Origin: Kofleriaceae bacterium
GTDB lineage: Bacteria > Myxococcota_A > Polyangia > Haliangiales > Haliangiaceae
Reading direction: 5' to 3'
Assembly: GCA_022842285.1 (NCBI GenBank)
Contig: JALHPV010000032.1
Span: forward strand, 1 to 37,998
DNA length: 37,998 nt
Under the pieces are notes generated by a model. That model was not told the origin of the DNA. It ran no database searches and was given only the letters and a program-made list of their open reading frames with translations. Of this stretch, positions 1,879 to 36,744 are shown piece by piece (position 1 is the stretch's first letter; the number at the start of each line of letters is the position of its first letter). Both the position numbers and the translations under genes were made by a program.

Positions 1879-4800
1879 CTAGTATCGCTTGCGCCAGAGC
1901 AGATCGATACCATTACGGTTCTTGTCGCCGACGATGCCTTCGACCACGAGCCGGCGCGTCAGGTAGTACTCGACCTCGGCCTCGCCGTTGTTCTCGTCGA
2001 CCCGGGCCCCGACGCGCTGGCGGTACGCGATGAACAGCTTCTGCGTGATCCACGAGCCAACGGTGACCGACTGGCTGTTGGTCGAGGTCGCGGCCTCGTA
2101 CTTCAGCACGTCGATATCGACGGGCAGCTTGTCCTTCACGTAGCCACCGAGCTGATTGCCAACGAGGGAAGCGCCGGCCGAGGTGACCTTGTCACGCGGG
2201 TTGCCGCTCGACGGCTCACCCGATGGCTCGCCCCCGAGGAGGAAGCCGAGCAGCTGGCCCTGCGAGTACGTGCCGGGGTTCGACGCCAGGATGACCTCCG
2301 GCTTGCTCACGCGACCGCGCACCTGCGTCGTCGTGGTGACGTCGGGGAAATCGTGCGAGATCACGACATCGAGGAGCGGGTCGACGGTGCCATCGAAGCG
2401 CACCTGCGCCCGGTCGACCTGGTAGCGCCGGCCGAACAGGTCAAGGTCACCGCGCTCGGCCTCGATGGCGCCAAACATTCCTAGATGCGCGCCACCGTCG
2501 ATGTCGACGCGCAGCTTGCCCGTCACGAGGCCGCGCAGCTCGGTGCTCTTCACGTACGTGGAGTGCAGCGTGATGTTCGCCTGGAAGGCGGGAATGATCG
2601 GCTCGTCGGCCTCGGCCTCGAGCGCCGCGAGCTCCTGCTTGCGCTCCGCGATCTCCTGCCCGGCCTCGACGAAGTACATGTCCTCGGGAGCACCGATCTC
2701 CTTGAGCGGCTCACCGCGATCATCGGGGACATCGACCGTGGCGTTCTTGATGTCGACGTCGGCCACCCACTTGGTGGGCTCGATGTGGAGCTTCGCGAAC
2801 ACGTCGGCGTCGATGTCGGGCTCGATCTCGCCGATCGGAGACACCTGGCGCAGCTCGATCTTCACGTCGCCGTTCGTCGGGCGCGTCCCGTTCATGCCGA
2901 AGGTGCCAGTCAGCTTCACCGTGCCCCCCCCCAGTCGGCCGTCGACGGCCACCTGGAGGTCTCGCTCGCTGACGGTGATGTCGACCGAGGCGCGCCGCAG
3001 GGTGCCGACCTCGGGCGAGATGGGCATGCGGGCATTCGATAGATGCAGGTCACCGGCGATGCGCGCGGTGCGGGCGTCGAGGCCGACGATCTTGAGATCC
3101 GCCGTCAGCGTGCCCTGTCCACCGGCGGCCGGCCCGGGCGCGAACGCGAACAGCGGCGCGAGGTCGAAGTTCTTCGCCTGCACGCGCACGCTGCCGGCCG
3201 AGAGGTTCGACGTGTCGGCGATGGCCTGGAGCTGGAGCATCCCGTCGGTCTGCTCGCCGTTGATGTTCACGAGGGCGGCGCCCTCCTGCCACGTGGCGTC
3301 GATCTGCATGCGCTTGATCGAGCGGGGCTTGCCGCGCCGCGAGACCCGGTTGCTCGCGAGGTCCGTCACGGCGATGTTCGCGCGGACCGTCGGATCGGCC
3401 ACCGTGCCGGAGACCTCGACGGTGCCGCTCAGGCGACCACTTCTGATCTCGCTGCGGCCGAACGTGGCCATGATCTGTGCGGCCGACAGGTCGGGGATCG
3501 TGGCAACGACGTCAAGCTCCGCCTCCAGCACCGCCGCTGGATTCCTCACGAGATCCGTCGTCGTGACCGGGATCGTGGTCGTGATCTCGACGAGGGGCAT
3601 CGGGCGCCGGAGGACGACCGCGCTGGCCCGGTCCGGGACCGGCAGGGTCACGAGGGTCACCTTCGCGTTCGTGCCCCGCTCGTCGATCGTCGCGAGGGCA
3701 TCGAGCGTGAGCGGTTGCGCGATCGGCGAGCCCCTCACGTCGGCCGCGCGTGCCGTCAACGTGATGGACTTCATCCCGGCCGTCACCGCGACGTCGCCGG
3801 TCACCTTGCCCCGGATGTTGGTGACGATGCCGAATCGCTCCAACATCGCCGGGTCGACCTGCACCTCGTACAGCTTCACGGCGGCGCCCTGCAGCGATGC
3901 GCGGCCGAGGCTGCTCCAGGCACCGGGAGAGAACAGCTTCTCGGGGAGCTCGATGGTGGCGCTGGCCTCGAGCTTGCCGAGGTTGTCGATCGTCGTGACG
4001 ATGCGCGGCGTCAGGATGCGCGGGCCATCGGTCCCGATGTCGATCGTCGCATCGAGCTCGCCGATGCCGCGCAACGGCGGGGCCTGGAAGTCGACGAGCT
4101 TGATCTGGCCGCCCAGCTGCGTCGCAGAGAGGTCGAGCTCGCCGCTGACCTCGCCCTGATACTCGTCGGGCGGGAGGTCGAGCAGCTGGGCGAGCTCGTT
4201 GACCTTCAGGCTGTCGAGGTTGATCCGCGCCGTGCGAATCTGCGGACGCTCGAGCTTCTGCCAGGAGGCCACGTCGGTGATGTCGCGCGGGGCCTGGACG
4301 TCGGCGACGATGCGGACATCGCCCATGGTCATGCTGCCAAGCTCCCCGTCGATGAGGAGCTGGTTCGGCCCCGCCTTGATCTCGAGGTCGAGGTCGACCG
4401 GGATCAGCTGTGTCGGGAGGAACGAGACGGCGAGCGCGCTGACGGCGAGGTCGCCGGCAAACAGGCCATCGCGGCGCGTGATGGTGGCCTCGACGTCGAG
4501 CTTGCCCGCGTAGCCCTGGTGGAGGGTGGCGAGATCGAAGCTCGAGCCCTCGACGCGCGCCGTCAGATCGCCCGCGTTGCGTCCGGTACGGAGCATCTCC
4601 ATCGACGCCGCGACCTTCGAGCCACCATTGCTCGACGCGAAGTCGCGGAGCGTGATCTTGCTGGCCGAGATCACGATCTCGCCGCGGTCGCCCTTCCACG
4701 TGCCGTCGCCCTTCACCTTGACCAGGTGGCGGGTGAGATCGATGGTGATCGGATCGCCGACGGCGGAGGGGAGCTCACCGATGCGCTGATCGGTGCCGAG

Positions 4801-32634: not shown

Positions 32635-33573
32635 ATGTACCCGGGCGGAGCCAAGAAGCGGCAGATCCTCTACGGCATCGCGACGTACATCCCGGGCGTC
32701 AACACGATCTTCGGACGCGGTGGAGGCGACTCGAAGTCGGCGCTCTACTGCTACTCGGTGTGGATGCGCCATCTCGTCATGGCGCACGCGGCCGGCCTGA
32801 AGCAGCATCCACGCGTCGTCGCGGAGCTCGGTCCCGGCGACACGCTCGGCGTCGGCATCGCCGCGCTGATCTCCGGCGCCGAGAAGTACTACGCGTTCGA
32901 CGTGGTCCGGCACGCGGACGTCGCCCACAACCAGCGCATCTTCGACGAGCTCGTGTCGCTGTTCGCGCAGCGCACGGCGATTCCCCACGGTGGCGACCTG
33001 CACGAGGTGCGGCCCCATCTCGACCGCTATGACTTCCCGCACGCGGTGCTCGGCGAGGCGCAGCTAAGGGCGGCCCTGGATCCGGACCGCCTCGCGAAGC
33101 TACGCGCAGGCCTCACGAGCGATGCCGTCGTGCAGTACCGCACGCGCTGGTTCGATGAAGCCGCGATCGAGCGCGACTCCGTCGACCTCGTGTGCTCGCA
33201 GGCCGTGCTGGAGCACGTCGACGAGCTCGACGGCGCCTACCGCGCGATGCGCCTGTGGCTGCGCCCCGGCGGCATGACCTCGCACCAGATCGACTTCCGG
33301 TGCCACAACACCTCGCGACCGTGGAACGGACACTGGACCATCTCGGACCGCGCCTGGAAGATCCTGCGCGGCAAGCGGCACTACCTCCTGAACCGCGAAC
33401 CGTATTCGGCCCACGTGCGGCTCCTCGCCGAGCACGGCTTCGACCTCGCGCAATCGATTCTCGTCACCGACCGCTCCACGCTGAAGCGGAGCAGCCTCGC
33501 GCCCCGGTTTGCCGATCTTTCCGACGAGGACTTGCAGACCTGCGGCGCTTTGATGCAATCAATCAAGCGGTGA
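32635..33573 (+). CDS. Class I SAM-dependent methyltransferase
   Basis: A 312-residue protein if it starts at the ATG at 32635; a TTG at 32623 would add four residues. The SAM-binding motif I is VVAELGPGDTLGVGIAALI followed by AEKYYAFDV. Motif II/III text is DLVCSQAVLEHVDELDGAYRAMRLWLRPGG, as in glycan and small-molecule methyltransferases. The C-terminal part DFRCHNTSRPWNGHWTI is characteristic of methyltransferases I associate with polysaccharide clusters. It overlaps the next glycosyltransferase by 4 bp (GTGA), so the two are translationally coupled and probably act on the same glycan. Confidence 0.85.
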   Translation: MYPGGAKKRQILYGIATYIPGVNTIFGRGGGDSKSALYCYSVWMRHLVMAHAAGLKQHPRVVAELGPGDTLGVGIAALISGAEKYYAFDVVRHADVAHNQRIFDELVSLFAQRTAIPHGGDLHEVRPHLDRYDFPHAVLGEAQLRAALDPDRLAKLRAGLTSDAVVQYRTRWFDEAAIERDSVDLVCSQAVLEHVDELDGAYRAMRLWLRPGGMTSHQIDFRCHNTSRPWNGHWTISDRAWKILRGKRHYLLNREPYSAHVRLLAEHGFDLAQSILVTDRSTLKRSSLAPRFADLSDEDLQTCGALMQSIKR

Positions 33574-34682
33574 CCAAGATCGTCTTCTGCATCCCGAGCC
33601 TCATCCAGGGCGGCGCGGAGCGGCAGATGCTGCAACTGATCGGGAGCCTGCCCGCCCGCTTCGAGCCGGTGCTCGTGCTCTTCGAGGACAAGGTCTACTA
33701 CCGGGACCTCCTGCCGCCGGGTCAGCCGAAGTACGTGCTTGGCACCGATCAGAAGATGACGGTCGCGAAGTTCCAGAAGCTCGTGGAGATCCTGCGGACG
33801 GAGCGGCCCGCGATCTTCCACTCGTACCTGAACAACGCGAACTTCTGGGGCCGCCTCGCGGCGCTGCGCGCGAAGGTCCCCGTCGTCATCTCGTCGGTGC
33901 GCGCCCGCATGATGGAGCCGCAGTACCTCGCCGTGGAGCGCCAGCTGGCCGCGCGGTCGACGCTCGTGATCGCGAACTCCGTCGGGATCAAGGACGAGCT
34001 CGTGACGATCGGTCGCGTCGATCCGGAGCGTGTGCGCGTGGTGCACAACTTCCTCGACGTGGAGAAGTGGCGCATGCCGTCCGATGACGAGCGCGCCCTC
34101 GCCCGCGCCAAGCTGGGGCTCTCGCCGACCGCCACCGTGATCGCCATCCCCGCGCGCATCTCGCTGCAAAAGCATCAGGCCGGCGTGCTGCTCGCTCTCG
34201 ATCGGATGGCCGCGCGGGGCGAGCTGCCTCCCGAGACCGTGGTCGTGATGCCGGGCCGCAAGGGCACGAGCTGGATCGACAAGATCGTCGAGCGCCTCGC
34301 CCAGCGGCCGCGCGTGAAGTCGCTGGTCGTGATGAACGGCGCCGAGTCCGACATGCGCTCGCTCTACTGGGCGGCCGATCTGATGGTGCTGTTCTCGTTG
34401 TGGGAGGGCCTACCGAACGTCGCGCTCGAAGCGGCGGCGTGTGGGACCCCGTCCCTGCTCTCTCACGCGGCGAACCTCGACGGGATCGTCGAGCCGGGCG
34501 TGACGGGCTGGGAGGTAAAGACTGGCATCCCGAGCGCCCTCGCCAGCGGCCTGGCGACGGCCCTGGCCACCCCGCGCAGCGAGCGCCAGGCGATGGGACG
34601 ACGCGGCCGTGACCGGGTCGTGACGATGTTCTCGCCCGACCGCGTCCTCGCCGAGACCTTGTCGGTGTACGACTCGCTGTAG
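33570..34682 (+). CDS. GT4-family glycosyltransferase, paralogue of the 23919-25058 enzyme
   Basis: A 370-residue GT-B protein beginning with a GTG at 33570 inside the stop of the methyltransferase gene. The acceptor domain starts KIVFCIPSLIQGGAERQMLQ. The donor half has IPARISLQKHQ, VVMPGRKG, LYWAADLMVLFSLWEGLPNVALEAAACGTP (E-x7-E) and a final YDSL. Matches to the other glycosyltransferase in the window include QGGAERQ, LPAR, YRDxLPPG, ERPAI.HSY, NFW.RLAA and ANSVGI/VNSVGI. Its TAG stop is formed by the left edge of the inverted-repeat element at 34680. It probably adds a sugar to a cell-surface glycan precursor. Confidence 0.9.
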   Translation: MTKIVFCIPSLIQGGAERQMLQLIGSLPARFEPVLVLFEDKVYYRDLLPPGQPKYVLGTDQKMTVAKFQKLVEILRTERPAIFHSYLNNANFWGRLAALRAKVPVVISSVRARMMEPQYLAVERQLAARSTLVIANSVGIKDELVTIGRVDPERVRVVHNFLDVEKWRMPSDDERALARAKLGLSPTATVIAIPARISLQKHQAGVLLALDRMAARGELPPETVVVMPGRKGTSWIDKIVERLAQRPRVKSLVVMNGAESDMRSLYWAADLMVLFSLWEGLPNVALEAAACGTPSLLSHAANLDGIVEPGVTGWEVKTGIPSALASGLATALATPRSERQAMGRRGRDRVVTMFSPDRVLAETLSVYDSL

Positions 34683-34842
34683 TGCCCCGACCGCCCGAAA
34701 CCGCTCCGTCTTTCGCGTGGCGCATCGCCGATCGCTTCGTTGCCGCTCCTAGAAGTACGCCCGGTAATCCGTCGTCGCGCCGCCTCGCGCTCGGCGCGCG
34801 CCGCACGAAATCCGTTCGCAGTTTCGGGCGGTCGGGGCACTA
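34680..34842. mobile_element. 163-bp MITE-like element with 22-bp perfect terminal inverted repeats
   Basis: Bases 34680-34701 (TAGTGCCCCGACCGC...) are the exact reverse complement of 34821-34842. Inside, complementarity continues imperfectly (TTTCGCGTGGCGC on the left against TTTCGTGCGGCGC read from the right), so the whole unit could fold into a long hairpin. It has no coding capacity. Each end is a TA dinucleotide, as expected for Tc1/mariner- or IS630-type target duplications. Collapsing the element to one TA leaves CTG-TAG for the glycosyltransferase and asnB 8 bp later, a normal operon junction. Classification as a MITE needs further copies; a structural RNA hairpin or regulatory palindrome is the alternative. 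Confidence 0.7.
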
Positions 34843-34851
34843 GACCACGTC

Positions 34852-36744
34852 ATGTGCGGCATAGCGGGCTACCTCTCGCGCGGACGCTCTCCCGACGACG
34901 CGCGCACCCTGGTCAAGGCGATGACCGACGCCGAGGCGCATCGCGGCCCGGACGCGGACGGCTTGTGGCAAGCCGGGCCGATCACGCTCGGTCACCGCCG
35001 CCTCTCGATCATCGATCTCTCACCCGATGCGAACCAGCCCATGATCTCGGGCGATATCGCGATCACGTTCAACGGCGAGGTCTACAACTACCTCGAGCTC
35101 GCCGCGGACCTGCGCGCCTCCGGCGTGACGCTGCGAACGAAGTGCGACACGGAGGTGTTGCTCGAGCTCTACAAGCGCGATGGCGTGGCCGCGTTCGCGA
35201 AGCTCACGTACATGGGCGCCTTCGCGATCTGGGACGGCACGCAGAAGCGGCTCATCCTCGTCCGCGATCGCCTCGGCAAGAAGCCGCTGTTCTTCCACGT
35301 CGGCCCGCGCGGCGTCGGCTTCGCGAGCGAGCTGCGTGCGCTGCTCCAGGATCGCGACATCCCCCGCAAGGTGGAGCCGAAAGCGCTGCACGCGTACCTC
35401 GCGCTCGGCTACGTCCCGACCGATCACTGCATCGTCGAGGGCGTCCGCAAGGTGCCGCCCGGGCACTTCGTCACGATCGACGGCGGAGGCGTGCGCGAGG
35501 AGCGCTACTGGAAGCTCGTCTTCGCGCCGCGCGAGCGCCCGATGGCCGAGATGGTCGAGGAGACGCGGACGCTGCTCTACAAGGCGGTGAAGCGACGCCT
35601 CGTGGCCGACGTGCCGCTGGGCGCGTTCCTGTCGGGCGGCATCGATTCGTCGGCCGTCGTCGGCATCATGAGCAAGATCGGCGCGAAGCCGGTCAAGACG
35701 TTCTCCATCGGCTTCGAGGAGAAGGACTACTCGGAGCTCGACTACGCCCGCGAGATCGCGCAGCTGTTCCACACCGAGCACCACGAGGAGGTCGTGCGGC
35801 CCAATGCCGTCGAGCTCCTCCCGCAGCTCGTGCGCGCCTACGGCGAGCCGTTCTCGGACCCGTCGATGGTGCCGACGTTCCTGCTCTCGCAGATGACCCG
35901 CAAGCACGTCACGGTCGCGCTCTCTGGCGATGGCGGCGACGAGGCGTTCGGCGGCTACAACCGCTACGTCCACGAGAAGATCGCGATGCTCGTCCAGCGC
36001 CTCCCGCGCCCGGTCATGGAGCCGCTCGCGCGCCTCGTCGAGGACAAGCTGCCCGGTCGCAAGGCCGGGCCTCTCGGCGAGCTGGCGGCGGCGATCCGCA
36101 CGCATGCCCGTCGCGTCCAGATGGACGACGTGGAGCGCTACGCCGCCCAGTTCGGCAACTTCACCCGCGACCAGCTCGCGGAGCTGTGCACGCCCGCGCT
36201 CACCGCCGCCGGGAACAACGAGGCCGAGCGCATCTTCAGCCAGATCCTCGCCGGCAGCAGCGCGCCCGATGACGACTGGCTGAACCGCCTCCTCGACATC
36301 GACACGCACACGTACCTCGTCGACGACATCTTCACGAAGGTCGACATCGCGTCGATGCAGAATTCGATCGAGGTGCGCTGCCCCCTCATCGATCACGAGC
36401 TGATCGAGTTTGCCGCCACCCTGCCCGCCGACGCGAAGCTGCACGGCTGGCGCGGCAAGCACGTCCTGCGCAAGGCGCTCGAGGACCTCCTCCCGCACAA
36501 GACGCTGTACCGGACCAAGAAGGGCTTCGGCATCCCGCAGGCCCGCTGGCTCCGCAACGAGCTGCGCCCCATGCTGCGCGACCTGTTGCTCGCGCCTCGC
36601 GTCTACGAGCGCGGCCAGCTCGAGCGCAAGACCGTGGAGCGCCTCCTCGACGAGCACGATAGCGGCAAGGTCAATCACGGCCTGCGCCTGTGGAACCTCC
36701 TGGTGCTCGAGCTCTGGCACCAGCACTACATCGACGGAGCCTGA
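34852..36744 (+). CDS. asnB: AsnB-type glutamine-hydrolysing amidotransferase
   Basis: A 630-residue class II glutamine amidotransferase plus synthetase. Mature Cys2 (MCGIAGYLSRG) is the glutaminase nucleophile; AHRGPDADG, LGHRRLSIIDLS and FNGEVYNY line the glutamine site. The synthetase domain has the PP-loop SGGIDSS at residues 261-267, then ALSGDGGDEAFGGYNRY and the C-terminal RTKKGFGIPQARWLR. The family makes asparagine from aspartate, but members in polysaccharide clusters can amidate sugar acids or other glycan carboxylates. Flanking glycosyltransferase and methyltransferase genes favour that second role here. The ATG at 34852 lies 9 bp after the inverted-repeat element. Confidence 0.92.
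   Translation: MCGIAGYLSRGRSPDDARTLVKAMTDAEAHRGPDADGLWQAGPITLGHRRLSIIDLSPDANQPMISGDIAITFNGEVYNYLELAADLRASGVTLRTKCDTEVLLELYKRDGVAAFAKLTYMGAFAIWDGTQKRLILVRDRLGKKPLFFHVGPRGVGFASELRALLQDRDIPRKVEPKALHAYLALGYVPTDHCIVEGVRKVPPGHFVTIDGGGVREERYWKLVFAPRERPMAEMVEETRTLLYKAVKRRLVADVPLGAFLSGGIDSSAVVGIMSKIGAKPVKTFSIGFEEKDYSELDYAREIAQLFHTEHHEEVVRPNAVELLPQLVRAYGEPFSDPSMVPTFLLSQMTRKHVTVALSGDGGDEAFGGYNRYVHEKIAMLVQRLPRPVMEPLARLVEDKLPGRKAGPLGELAAAIRTHARRVQMDDVERYAAQFGNFTRDQLAELCTPALTAAGNNEAERIFSQILAGSSAPDDDWLNRLLDIDTHTYLVDDIFTKVDIASMQNSIEVRCPLIDHELIEFAATLPADAKLHGWRGKHVLRKALEDLLPHKTLYRTKKGFGIPQARWLRNELRPMLRDLLLAPRVYERGQLERKTVERLLDEHDSGKVNHGLRLWNLLVLELWHQHYIDGA

Follow-up and report, generated by a model that had tools for sequence, protein, structure and literature searches.

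A probable IS630-mobilized MITE at a glycosyltransferase stop codon in a Kofleriaceae bacterium, with a core shared by Myxococcota elements that differ in their ends

Introduction

The usual view of a bacterial MITE is that it arose from a single parent insertion sequence by internal deletion, in which case its middle should fare as the parent does. Among the closest described systems, the RUP element of Streptococcus pneumoniae is 107 bp long, with IS630-Spn1 as its proposed mover (PMC2229807, PMC3049150), and the Correia or NEMIS elements of Neisseria occur in forms of 107 and 155 bp (PMC2229807), the longer of which has an internal motif, an IHF site. MITEPsy1 of Pseudomonas syringae is a 100-bp element (PMC3189936) that has itself been seen to move and is attributed to the IS5-type ISPsy2, with a 4-bp duplication.

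Here, we describe a 163-bp palindrome in a 37,998-nt stretch of DNA (the window; contig JALHPV010000032.1 of assembly GCA_022842285.1, positions 1 to 37,998) from a Kofleriaceae bacterium, a soil myxobacterium whose family lies within Myxococcota. We read it as a MITE of the RUP and Correia kind (PMC2229807, PMC3049150). Like RUP, it is a small, non-coding palindrome with a TA-containing target and terminal repeats similar to those of IS630, and RUP is likewise over-represented between convergent genes; RUP, however, is AT-rich, belongs to one species group, and has no reported core in common with elements of other transposase types. Correia and NEMIS elements resemble it in length (~155 bp), TA ends, 24-bp terminal repeats, and long hairpin transcripts but differ in sequence and taxon, and in the superfamily to which the window element belongs, the terminal repeats change around a kept core. 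MITEPsy1 shares the CTAG site but not the transposase type or the duplication length. The terminal repeats of the insertion sequences IS630 and IS1182 match those of superfamily members; these sequences encode transposases and the core has not been seen in them, whereas the window element is the reverse on both counts.

Results

The element occupies positions 34,680 to 34,842 of the forward strand (TAGTGCCCCGACCGCCCGAAAC ... GTTTCGGGCGGTCGGGGCACTA), an imperfect palindrome running from TA to TA, less than 200 bp long and without a transposase gene. Upstream is an ORF with a group-1 glycosyltransferase (33,192 to 34,682, forward strand), whose true start is probably nearer residue 129, and downstream is a gene for an AsnB-type asparagine synthase (34,852 to 36,744, forward strand); both neighbours are sugar-coat genes. 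The first and last 22 bases, which form a left terminal inverted repeat at 34,680 to 34,701 (forward) and a right one at 34,821 to 34,842 (reverse), are perfect complements with TA at both outer limits, the left TA (34,680 to 34,681) in the outer context GTAG and the right TA (34,841 to 34,842) in the outer context CTAG; we take the two TAs as the halves of a target duplication. The 22-bp arm has no look-alike elsewhere in the window, where 0 chance matches are expected (100 shuffles). The glycosyltransferase ORF has its stop codon in the TAG that opens the left repeat (34,680 to 34,682); when the flanks are joined at a single TA, giving ...CTG TAG ACCACGTC ATG, this stop is kept and asnB starts 8 bp later. 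Both the complementary, TA-bounded ends and this tidy excision had been claimed in the initial annotation, and both are confirmed.

In a computed fold, the whole 163 nt forms a single hairpin of -96.6 kcal/mol (z = -8.06 against shuffles), which may influence asnB. Positions 34,717 to 34,813 (forward) hold a core that is kept across Myxococcota elements with differing ends and matches model R1 at E 9.2e-20, the window copy itself belonging to the set from which R1 was built. Within the core lie a box of conserved alignment columns, CTTCGTTGC (34,735 to 34,743), an apex region, GTACGCCCGGTA (34,755 to 34,766), and a second box, GCCGCCTCGC (34,779 to 34,788; GCGCCTTGCC in other genomes), all on the forward strand. 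A second CTAG is found inside the element at 34,749 to 34,752.

The search for sister copies that the initial annotation had proposed turned up further copies bounded by TA or CTAG in the source genome (7.9 Mb, 550 contigs), in which the core model finds 9 core copies. One other full-length copy is 78% identical to the window element, and seven more share mainly the middle; most of the other copies end in CTAGTCCTCCGACCGGGGCTTG and its complement. The genome also holds fragments, as well as a ~24-bp remnant in which two ends are joined. Palindromes of 22-24 bp made up of two joined ends alone (L125:2670, L126:2401, and L024:1501) are apparently remnants after hairpin deletion. A pattern for the TAGTGCYCCGACCG subfamily, searched against 84,980 species genomes, was found in seven stretches from six MAGs, several of these stretches being the same contigs as in relatives G011, G015, G020, and G026. 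One is labelled Kofleriaceae, one Myxococcales, and the others Deltaproteobacteria or Proteobacteria. A group II intron domain (Rfam) lies near a G015 copy, at L079:471-531.

Alignment of relatives, also proposed at the outset, revealed empty sites for two sister copies. The convergent gene pair at C17 is continuous, with no element, in six genomes (G002, G004, G005, G008, G012, and G014), as is the C3 pair in G003, G011, G013, and others, and a lone CTAG is kept at some of the empty sister sites (G014, G013, and G011). At the glycosyltransferase-asnB junction itself, G014 and G013 have no insert and the two genes overlap as TGATG; with ~44-47% protein identity and a longer reading frame in these relatives, the comparison gives absence of the element and not a base-exact empty site. 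Among 20 full-length, TA-bounded copies from the source and related genomes, the element's own terminal TAG or TAA is the stop of at least one flanking ORF in 12 and of both in 5; the ORFs in this count come from a simple rule on codon position. The window holds 11 CTAGs where about 34 would be expected, and several of them serve as gene stops. Because CTAG is rare and several CTAGs are stop codons, surviving copies lie at gene ends, where they restore TAG, and a CTAG preference goes far to explain the stop-codon position.

A Pfam search found no DDE_3 (IS630) transposase in the source genome or in most copy-holding relatives, and we met no autonomous partner near single ends in the source genome. 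Evidence on the mover comes instead from within the genus. Two loci in G001 and G013 are 79% identical from TA-bounded TAGTCCTTCGACCG / TAGTCCTTCGACCGACGCTTGGTGATCACGT inward to a decayed IS630 transposase and unrelated before that point; since the identity begins exactly at the TA, this is a true IS630 end. It is a left end, and it matches the commonest MITE end of the source genome (G000) at 30 of 37 positions. Both of these best-matching IS630 genes are decayed, and no right end was found for either, nor was the second end of a type II (TAACCCCAG) IS630 in G013. In G005, an IS630 gene (NCBIfam NF033545, 264 bits) lies between the ends C TA GTCCCCCG..CGGGGGAC TA G. In G001, TAGTGCTCCGACCGCGGGG, which is near the window's end type, directly follows a C-terminus resembling the IS630 transposase of G018. 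Three G001 contigs (L138, L139, and L140) break ~138 bp inside the same TAGTGCTCCGACCGCGGGG element, which is a multi-copy repeat that did not assemble and has an IS630-like C-terminus; the search for a full-length version in G001 gave contig-end fragments only.

Two other candidate partners were set aside. The IS630 of G018 adjoins a MITE-type end but has its own 22-bp ends; this IS630-family element (contig C323, L163:120-1600) has inserted immediately next to a MITE remnant. In G087, two inverted ends lie 2.6 kb apart, but none of the ORFs between them was recognized as a transposase.

The ends of the window copy (TAGTGCCCCGACCGCCCG) differ from the best IS630-matched end and match an IS630-like end over only about their first 14 bases. 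These end comparisons point to IS630 as the likely mover in the window's lineage, with a weaker match for the window copy itself. The attribution is to that lineage and not to the whole superfamily, because elsewhere in the phylum this core is found between ends of the IS1182 type. The proposal of a non-autonomous IS630/mariner-type insertion is supported by sister copies, empty sites, and IS630 genes with matching ends in the same genus, and it is qualified by the short match of the window copy and by a source genome in which no such transposase was found.

The core extends well beyond this lineage. It is ~97 bp long, with boxes CTTCGTTGC and GCGCCTTGC flanking an apex hairpin, and 24 full-length elements of ~160 bp align over their length, with CTTCGTTGC, the apex hairpin, and GCGCCTYGC kept in the middle but ends that belong to several types without relation to one another. 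Of the 38 pairs in the RNAalifold prediction, 29 show changes on both sides, interior pairs included. Since any terminal repeat would have paired ends, hairpin formation has to be judged from the interior pairs alone, and two-sided changes there could equally stem from hairpin-templated correction. With a covariance model, core matches were found in 39 of 141 sampled Myxococcota genomes, with at least 29 in the richest (29 candidates scored there). In an independent check, terminal inverted repeats scoring at least 12 surround 38 of 53 fetched core hits, a score reached by 4 of 176 random positions in a control, and 41 of the 53 are 150-172 bp long. In two IMG/VR contigs (L249 at ~3800-3970, forward, and L275 at ~3280-3480, reverse), the core lies within ~160-bp palindromes whose outer ends differ; we read the host of these contigs from the ORFs as gammaproteobacteria-like, and the core probably also occurs outside Myxococcota. 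A search of plasmids for the core found none, and phages gave single weak matches only. The literature searched held no mention of the two core boxes together. This is a previously unnamed, phylum-wide superfamily in which the middle is constant and the ends match different transposases.

The clearest case of a different transposase is an intact 1407-bp element in G065, C TAGGAGCCTGACCCAAGAC..GTCTTGGGTCAGGCTCCTA G (L420:1501-2907, contig C3), which codes for a transposase of the IS1182 family (NF033551, 305 bits; cut-off 270) and has TAG ends in a CTAG context. Over 19-21 bp, these ends are the same as those of a 164-bp core-carrying MITE in the same genome, so the core occurs with the ends of at least two transposase families. 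The two elements of G065 could serve directly as partners in a test of transposition. Elsewhere, the ends of core-carrying elements vary widely (for example, TAGGAGCCTGACCCA, TAGTGTCCTGTCTCA, and TAGCAGCCNGTGG), and families in G019 (L327-L334) and G161 (L346-L349) have GGGCYC ends with 3-bp TTA/TAA flanks, which suggests a third, IS5-like transposase.

Discussion

We consider it very probable that the window holds a MITE from the core-carrying superfamily, inserted at the TA of the glycosyltransferase TAG stop and most likely moved by IS630. An IS630-family transposase acting in trans would recognize the terminal inverted repeats and prefer CTAG-like targets; insertion would then take place at the TA overlapping the TAG stop, duplicating it, with the repeats enclosing the ~97-bp palindromic core common to the phylum-wide ~160-bp superfamily. 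The choice of CTAG as a target may be an example of sparing host genes by landing on stop codons.

Mobilization by an IS1182-family transposase instead of IS630 is the most serious alternative, although we think it unlikely. Elements of this family in the phylum have TAG ends and CTAG sites, and the G065 pair ties such ends to a MITE with the same core. The matching ends in the window's own genus, however, lie on IS630 genes, and an unsystematic look met no IS1182 end resembling TAGTGCCCCGACCG.

Far less probable is a fixed operon hairpin with a role in regulation or in stopping transcription, kept for its effect on asnB or, at other sites, between convergent genes. The very stable fold, the 29 of 38 predicted pairs with compensatory changes, interior ones included, and the frequent position of copies at gene ends would all fit such a structure, but orthologous sites are empty and the copies are dispersed with different ends. 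The hairpin lacks the T run that follows the GC-rich stem of an intrinsic terminator, and no Rfam family matched at gathering score over the element at 12 loci. The initial annotation had held that a lone copy, with the same hairpin in all relatives, would indicate a fixed structure; sister copies are present, and two relatives have element-free junctions. We give slightly less credence still to a REP/BIME-like element moved by a hairpin-recognizing RAYT tyrosine transposase. Such elements are likewise palindromic, intergenic, and multi-copy, with a conserved apex, but the TA duplication and the long, perfect terminal repeats, which match the ends of DDE-type insertion sequences, speak against it.

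While insertion of a MITE accounts for the window locus, the history of the core is a separate matter. A middle that is kept across parents of different families is not predicted by the view of MITEs as internal deletions, and an exchange of ends onto a kept core fits better than internal deletion of a parent. Another possible account is that all these elements descend from a single very old one whose ends evolve fast. The same core seems to be carried between ends on which different transposases act, and it may be the persistent unit of a phylum-wide, probably wider, set of ~160-bp mobile hairpins, a unit that takes on new terminal repeats again and again and so hitchhikes on any DDE transposase that happens to be resident, with the core itself under selection; our confidence in this proposal is evenly divided. 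In Kofleriaceae the partner would be IS630 and elsewhere IS1182, with an IS5-type transposase that makes 3-bp TNA duplications as a further possibility. If this is true, the core may be selected, for example, for binding a host or transposition factor or for cruciform formation. The core model can be used for searching many genomes, and the superfamily makes testable the question of what, besides terminal repeats, lets a miniature element succeed. A conserved middle combined with transposase-dependent ends points to a core that matters in its own right.
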